Shown here: piece after piece, positions 30,797-33,014 of the stretch
Numbering within the stretch: the first letter of the stretch is position 1
Layout: each line of letters starts with the position of its first letter
Made by a program: the position numbers and the translations under genes
Source: Gemmatimonadota bacterium
Lineage (GTDB): Bacteria; Gemmatimonadota; Gemmatimonadetes; Longimicrobiales; Gaopeijiaceae
DNA length: 35,405 nt
Assembly: GCA_022561145.1 (NCBI GenBank)
Contig: JADFRS010000021.1
Coordinates: forward strand, 1 to 35,405
Direction: 5' to 3'
The notes under the pieces: generated by a model
The model's database searches: none
What the model saw: only the letters and a program-made list of their open reading frames with translations
Told to the model about the DNA's origin: nothing

Positions 30797-31297
30797 CTAG
30801 CGTCCGCCCGAACCCGATCCCCCAGGCCGTTGGTCGAACCCGGGAGCGATTCGGGCCGCCTCACCGCCCGGGACCCAGATTACCAACGCGCGCACCGGTT
30901 CGTTTCCGGGTATGCGGTGGATCACCTCGTCGCCGGGCCGGACAATACCCACCATTCCAGGGGTGAGCAGGTAGGACTCACCGTTCACGACGTGTTCGAG
31001 TTCGCCCGAAAGCACGTAGAAGATCTCGATGGACGTGTGATTGTGTCCGCGCCTTGGAACTGAGCCGGCGGGGAACGTGATCTCCCCGATCTCCAACTCC
31101 GAGCCGCCGAGGTTTTCCGCCTCGACCAACATCTTGATGGTGAGGGCGCTCCTGCTCGACTCGAACCAGCGGGTCCCTCGTGTCGCTTTCTGGTACTCCT
31201 GTGCGTCTGCGTTCCACGCACCCGCGGCGAGAGGATTGACCAAGCGCGTCAGTCCAGGCGCACGATCGACCCGCCGGCCGTCAGGGCCGCGCCGCAC
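30797..31297 (-). CDS. Cupin domain-containing protein (start uncertain)
   Basis: RRGHNHTSIEIFYVLSGELEHVVNGESYLLTPGMVGIVRPGDEVIHRI. Confidence 0.8.
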   Translation of the reverse strand: MRRGPDGRRVDRAPGLTRLVNPLAAGAWNADAQEYQKATRGTRWFESSRSALTIKMLVEAENLGGSELEIGEITFPAGSVPRRGHNHTSIEIFYVLSGELEHVVNGESYLLTPGMVGIVRPGDEVIHRIPGNEPVRALVIWVPGGEAARIAPGFDQRPGGSGSGGR

Positions 31298-31729
31298 TCG
31301 TTCCGCTCGCGAAAGATGCTGAACGGAGTGGGCGGTTCAGGATGCTCGGGCGGATCCTGGAGTGCGAGTTGCCACCACCCCACGTCGTGCCAACGTCCGA
31401 TCTTGTGGCCTACGGTGCGGTAGACGCCCAACGGCTTGAAGCCGAGAGCCTCATGCAGGCCTACGCTGCCCTCGTTGGGTAGAGTGATCCCGGCATACGC
31501 CTTCACCAGGCCCTGTTGCTTGAGGACCTCGAGGAGCGAGGTATAGAGAGCACGCGACACGCCCGAGCGCCGCTGCGATACGACGCTCCATCTCGCCTGC
31601 CGACGGCGGGCTCTCTTCGAACGAGATGGCGGTATCCGCCACGATCGGCCGGTAGATGTCCGAGATCTGCCCAGCGTCGGGCGGGCGGGCGATGCGAATC
31701 CGGGTCAACTCCATCGACGTCCCCGCCAT
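31249..31729 (-). pseudogene. GNAT (phosphinothricin acetyltransferase-like) gene with internal deletion and frame change
   Basis: N-part IRIARPPDAGQISDIYRPIVADTAISFEESPPSAGEMERRIA and C-part SRALYTSLLEVLKQQGLVKAYAGITLPNEGSVGLHEALGFKPLGVYRTVGHKIGRWHDVGWWQL are in different frames; the central segment is absent. Confidence 0.75.
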
Positions 31730-31744
31730 TCTCCGTGTATGCCG

Positions 31745-32788
31745 TCAGCTGCCCCCGTAGATCTCAGTCCCGGGGAAGGTGAGGGCGTAGCCGTACCAGC
31801 GCGTAAAGACCTGCATGGGCCGCTCGGCGCGTACTTCCGAGTCGCCGTCGAAGAGTCCTCCGGCCCGCACGTGACGGCCATTGTTCAGCCGCAGCACGGT
31901 CCCGTCCCAGCTGGCTCCCGTGGCTTCAGTGTAAAGGGCCGCGACCGTGTTCGCCGTAGGCTCGATGTAAATGAGCACGCCGCGTCCGTCGATACGGTCG
32001 AACACGAATCCACCCTCATCGTTGACCACCTCCATGGGGTAGTACGTCTGGGTGTCGTTGGTCCAGACACCCAGCCCGATGTCCATCTCCGGCCTTCTCG
32101 GATCTTCGCCCCGCATGGTGCGGTGCATCCGGTCGGACAGCATCCGCACCCGGTCGGTCAGCGGCGCCCAACGGCTGCGCTTGCGGATTTCTCGGTCGGA
32201 GATTGCCACCATCAGGTCCGGGTCACCGTCCAGCGCTTGCTCAACCGTGGCAAGCAGCAGGTTGTACATGGGCATCTGGCGTCCCTTCATCGGCCCGTCC
32301 AACGCCTTGCCCGTGATGTGGTGCCAATAGGAGCCCGTCTCGGAGTCCCAAAGCAATGAGACGCCGTTGAACAGACCCCGAAACTCGAAGTGAAGGAGCT
32401 GTCCGTCGATCGTGGGAGTGAAACTCACCCCTGAGTTGCAGACGGGTCAGAACGACACCATCCACGGCTCGCCCATGATCTCACCCTGCGCCGCGTGGTG
32501 GTATGACATCTGGTCCCTCACCAGGGCGAGTCTTTGTTGGGAGTGTTCGATGATCAGGAGGACCGCGTGATCCTGCAGCGTGCCGTCAGAGAGGGCGTCG
32601 CGCAGCGGCCGGATCTCATCGGTCACCTGGAACGGGACGTAGACGGTCGAATCGAAAAGCATCGCCCGGTTGGCGTCGAACTCTTCGCTTCCGGCCGTAA
32701 CGAGTTCCTGGGCCGACAGCGTGAGTACGCCGGCCACAGCCGCCATGGGAAAGGCGAGCAGTGAGGTCGCGAGGCGTGACTTGGTCAT
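31745..32788 (-). CDS. DUF3179 domain-containing exported protein with in-frame TGA (32449..32447) at the first Cys of CPxC; candidate selenoprotein or nonsense-interrupted gene
   Basis: Same-frame ORFs 32447..32845 and 31745..32428 read ...GEIMGEPWMVSF[TGA]PVCNSGVSFTPTIDGQLLHFEFRGLFNGVSLLWDSETGSYWHHITGKALDGPMKGRQM...; signal peptide MTKSRLATSLLAFPMAAVAGVLTLSAQ. Confidence 0.8.
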
Positions 32789-33014
32789 GTCCACTCCCGA
32801 GCAGGGGTTAGGCGGTCTTTGGGAGCCTGGTGCTCCGCATCCCAACTCGCCGCCATGGTACTATCGTTCCGTGGGGTGGGGAAGGGAGCCTCGCCCGATG
32901 GATCATGCATCCCCCCCCGGAGACGCGACGGTCCGACCGCCAGTCCACCGCCTCTAGATCGTGGAGGCGTCCCACATCCACGCTGAGCAGGTCGTGCCGA
33001 TTCCGCTTGGTGAG

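Follow-up and report, generated by a model that had tools for sequence, protein, structure and literature searches.

The gene and its reading frame

A gene for a DUF3179 protein on the contig studied here carries a single in-frame TGA, which raises the question of whether the gene is broken or whether the codon is read as selenocysteine (Sec). The whole stretch analysed (35,405 nucleotides, hereafter the window) lies on contig C59 of a 4.1-Mb draft genome of a Gemmatimonadota bacterium, assembled in 252 contigs and about 89% complete. On the minus strand, a single open frame of 347 codons plus stop extends from an ATG at 32788 to a terminal TGA at 31747-31745 (31745-32788), with one internal TGA at 32449-32447. 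The preliminary description of the locus, which proposed a candidate selenoprotein, had placed the two halves at 32845-32447 and 32428-31745 in a common frame, otherwise intact to 31745. Both the coordinates and the continuity of the frame proved correct, the internal TGA being the only interruption. A possible Shine-Dalgarno sequence (GGGAG, 32794-32798, same strand) was read 5 nt before the ATG. Immediately beyond the 3′ end, an adjoining GNAT-type acetyltransferase gene (31249-31729, minus strand) is split across two frames, seems to have lost an internal segment and is likely a pseudogene.

The read-through product has 347 residues, with U114 and its partner Cys117 (32438-32440) in the context MVSF-U-PVCNSG. 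DUF3179 (PF11376) was the sole Pfam family matched by this protein (P0001; E = 1.1e-24, 87.9 bits against a cut-off of 27), and the match spans the TGA (residues 88-317). The N-terminal stretch MTKSRLATSLLAFPMAAVAGVLTLSAQ (32708-32788) reads like a signal peptide and resembles the N termini of relatives, which suggests that the protein is exported. Two adjacent histidines, His97-His98 (32495-32500), occupy invariant columns in the clade described below, as does Cys117, and are candidate active-site or metal residues.

Conservation of the TGA among Gemmatimonadota

Searches of 154 genomes from the order and 395 from the phylum recovered a clade (clade A) of 36 intact genes, including that of the window, from 30 genomes spanning several families. 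The relatives are about 40-53% identical to the window gene and share the motif FUxxCN[ST]G. TGA stands at the codon for residue 114 in 36/36 of these genes and Cys in 0/36, and none contains another internal stop; the preliminary description's reading of the TGA was therefore borne out among homologues, as was its placement of the codon at the first Cys of the CxxC motif of Cys-containing homologues (YCPLC, YCTVC). These Cys proteins (with YCPLC or YCTVCRTG) align with the window protein over the domain and have the conserved His and the CxxC pattern in common with it, but have a Cys codon where the window gene has TGA. A paralogue elsewhere in the host genome (contig C36) also has a single TGA, at the matching codon, in the context VTF-U-AACNTG. 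One further genome (G171) holds a tandem pair of clade-A Sec genes (L068:310-2517).

A second group (clade B) comprises two genes, in genomes G321 and G241, with the motif YUTLCHTG; they lie at L073:964-2097 and L078:2-1060. In the phylogenetic tree, from which one clade-A gene (L042) is absent, clade A forms one group with support of 100/100. Clade B falls apart from it, nearest to Cys genes with YCTVCRTG, at a join of moderate support (90/63) and on long branches. Sec is thus found in two separate DUF3179 branches of the phylum, by two gains or by losses.

The 12-kb neighbourhoods of 20 clade-A genes revealed no conserved neighbour and no operon partner. Searches with the window gene or its protein found no relative on the viral contigs searched and no match among PDB sequences.

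A covarying hairpin downstream of the TGA

Counting the T of the TGA as 1, a 6-bp stem pairs nt 19-24 with nt 30-35 around a 5-nt loop. In the window, this putative SECIS hairpin occupies 32415-32431 on the minus strand, with the stem GGGGUG/CACUCC and the loop AGUUU at 32425-32421. The stem is fully paired in 35/36 clade-A genes, and 99.5% of stem cells are paired among the 35 that were aligned; the 36th (L042) is also perfectly paired. Two-sided (compensatory) changes were seen at 4/6 pairs (21/33, 22/32, 23/31 and 24/30), with pair 21/33 occurring as GU, GC, AU and CG, the last again in L042. None of 500 shuffled controls (0/500) reached the observed percentage paired or the covariation score, and moving the partner strand by 1-3 nt reduced pairing to 34-62%. 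Moreover, RNAalifold recovered the identical stem unprompted. The second loop base is G in all clade-A genes, and loops such as GGUCU are presumably similar to the loop that SelB binds in E. coli fdhF. By these measures, the clade-A hairpin behaves as would be expected of a bacterial SECIS. Since TGA is found in 36/36 intact genes of the clade and is followed by a covarying hairpin, its position goes beyond chance.

A covariance model built from the clade-A sites matched clade A itself, which is the training set, at E<1e-12 (the window copy, a member of that set, at E = 1e-13). Its match to clade B was weak (0.008), and that to one Cys gene was no better than chance (0.36). No equivalent hairpin was found in the Cys DUF3179 homologues examined. 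Clade B has a possible hairpin of its own after the TGA, CCACACC-GGUCU-GGUGUGG, which was folded as such for L078.

Pair 24/30 is G-C in the window copy alone and C-G in the other genes. Of the two changes, that on the 5′ side (GTC to GTG) is synonymous, whilst that on the 3′ side replaces Leu with Phe. It appears that in this copy the stem was maintained at a cost to the protein.

Selection on the protein and a truncated orthologue

For nine pairs of relatives, dN/dS was 0.06-0.32 upstream of the TGA as well as downstream, the values for the deepest pairs (dS >1) being rough. These ratios indicate that purifying selection acts on both sides of the codon. A scan of genome contigs for close relatives returned only a remnant from the same genus; compared with this remnant, the window gene gave a dN/dS of 0.17 downstream of the TGA. 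Only one further genome of the genus was found (G056; contig JACZXQ010000014.1, L061), and it holds the remnant in a rearranged locus. There, at L061:2411-3800, unrelated sequence has taken the place of the 5′ half of the gene, TGA included; from its translation we take that sequence to be a fragment of an inward-rectifier K+ channel gene. The 3′ end of the remnant runs into a GNAT remnant. The same genome retains its other DUF3179 gene (L054) intact, with the TGA. The truncated orthologue implies that the window copy is dispensable rather than essential; in the window it is intact.

These observations bear on the view that the TGA arose by nonsense mutation and that the gene is decaying, a possibility that the preliminary description had raised on the grounds that other genes in the window are decaying. 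The neighbours do look broken, as in the GNAT gene divided between two frames (31729-31249), and the remnant in the same genus adds to the caution. However, TGA at the matching codon in 36/36 intact genes without other stops, purifying selection downstream (dN/dS of 0.17 against the remnant) and a compensatory pair in the window copy itself that keeps the hairpin all argue that the window gene is not a pseudogene, and we regard that explanation as very improbable. Despite its in-frame stop, the gene is almost certainly intact.

A similarly slight chance is given to programmed termination, whereby the short product of 113 residues would be the functional one and readthrough minor. UGA recoding is in general rarely fully efficient, which speaks for it. 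However, selection downstream of the TGA is about as strong as upstream, and a C-terminal motif conserved in the clade alignment, RWYGFALTFP, sits downstream of the TGA.

Selenocysteine machinery and probable decoding of the UGA

The host genome was found to contain the whole set of genes that the preliminary description had named as a check, namely selA (546 bits), selB (323 bits), selD (375 bits) and tRNA-Sec (68 bits; called by ARAGORN as SeC(tca), i.e. with anticodon tca). The selD gene likewise contains one in-frame TGA, located where Sec is known to occur in SelD (HGAG-U-AGK), which is a sign from within the genome that UGA is read as Sec in this organism. Its locus (L030; G000:C228:41365-42285) is thus a selenoprotein gene in its own right. 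Across clade A, tRNA-Sec or SelA was detected in 29/30 genomes; in the other (G054, 76% complete) the Sec gene is present and neither selA nor tRNA-Sec was found. Within the order, co-occurrence with SelA (16/19 against 90/135) was not significant by itself (Fisher p = 0.19), because SelA is common there.

The same data weigh on the idea that UGA is recoded to some other residue, through a genome-wide reading of TGA as Trp or a Cys-inserting tRNA with a UCA anticodon. Reassignments of UGA do exist in some bacteria. However, TGA is also the terminator of the window gene and of many relatives, each gene has only one internal TGA, always at the Cys column, and the complete SelA/SelB/SelD/tRNA-Sec set is present together with the SECIS hairpin, so that such recoding seems highly unlikely. 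Cys may nevertheless be placed at residue 114 under low selenium. A sequencing or assembly error at 32447-32449, raised in the preliminary description and conceivable in a draft of 252 contigs, is practically negligible, since the C36 paralogue and 29 other, independent clade-A assemblies, two of them single-contig (G044 and G270), have TGA at this codon as well.

Taken together, sequence comparisons support the presence and conservation of the decoding signal, the Sec machinery and the action of selection on the protein. We put the probability that the UGA at 32449-32447 is decoded as Sec at about 95%, a figure that refers to the decoding and not to the biochemical role. We infer the actual incorporation of Sec, the export of the protein and its role along the following lines. 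SelA would convert seryl-tRNA-Sec to selenocysteyl-tRNA with selenophosphate supplied by SelD, and SelB, bound to the hairpin just 3′ of the UGA, would deliver the charged tRNA to the ribosome. Sec would then be inserted at residue 114 to give a full-length, exported DUF3179 selenoprotein. In the mature protein, a Rieske-like beta domain would carry the Sec114-x-x-Cys117 pair together with both invariant histidines, and the protein would most likely act as an extracytoplasmic thiol/selenol redox enzyme or hold a metal through its Sec/Cys/His residues.

Relationship to described DUF3179 selenoproteins

The preliminary description did not recall DUF3179 as a described selenoprotein family. It is in fact already listed as a prokaryotic one, with the motif UxxC/T (PMC9312934, and again in a 2026 review, PMC13188914), a listing that PMC9312934 traces to the study of an Olavius algarvensis deltaproteobacterial symbiont by Zhang and Gladyshev (2007). 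Gemmatimonadota go unmentioned in the 2026 review. By description, the published selenoprotein family, with MBW1804167.1 and MDJ0986319.1 as representatives, has the domain PF11376 and Sec in UxxC in common with the window protein. On the same footing, the genes reported here appear to differ in forming a Gemmatimonadota clade with FUxxCN[ST]G and no Cys member seen. The finding is therefore a well-supported new clade in a known selenoprotein family and not a new family. What is new is the large, all-Sec clade A in Gemmatimonadota, the other Sec branch (YUTLC), which among the genes sampled is closest to Cys forms, and the predicted Rieske-like fold.

Because standard gene callers would split clade-A genes at the UGA, mis-annotation of the protein in genomes of Gemmatimonadota is probable. 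That not one of 36 genes has Cys is unusual and suggests a chemistry that depends on the selenol; such a dependence would make DUF3179 function testable by U-to-C replacement.

Predicted fold and possible function

AlphaFold2 modelled the N-terminal domain (residues 36-202; 32183-32683, minus strand) with confidence (pLDDT 94.9). When this domain was compared with PDB folds, the top matches were almost all Rieske proteins, with probabilities of up to 0.98, TM-scores by target of 0.50-0.58 and E values of only about 0.1. The full-length search returned noise and weak Rieske matches. In Rieske [2Fe-2S] ferredoxins the ligands follow the pattern CxH-x(15-17)-CxxH; in the window protein, 16 residues separate His97 from U114 (His97-x16-U114-x-x-C117), and UxxC falls at the position of the Rieske CxxH. 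Beyond the similarity in predicted fold, however, the window protein has neither the Rieske ligand set nor profile similarity. Membership of the Rieske family was rejected: CxH is absent, Pfam returned only DUF3179, and profile comparison with the Rieske sequences of the host genome found nothing (hhalign probability 0.1%). An internal two-domain repeat, hinted at by the order of secondary-structure elements, was likewise discarded for want of sequence support.

The Rieske-like predicted fold offers a structural hint to the role of DUF3179. The odds seem about even that the window protein is exported and uses the UxxC pair and H97/H98 for redox chemistry or as a metal site. More speculatively, and in our judgement doubtful, DUF3179 could be a Rieske-like fold in which the second ligand loop changed first to CxxC and later to UxxC, giving an extracytoplasmic Sec/Cys/His site for a metal or for redox chemistry; one Gemmatimonadota clade would be unable to do without Sec. 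Lastly, a fold search of viral structure predictions with the 32183-32683 domain matched an uncharacterised protein of the giant virus Indivirus ILV1 (A0A1V0SD44, E = 3e-7) and one of Hokovirus (A0A1V0SF28, E = 0.004), which, going by the predicted models, are possibly viral relatives of DUF3179.
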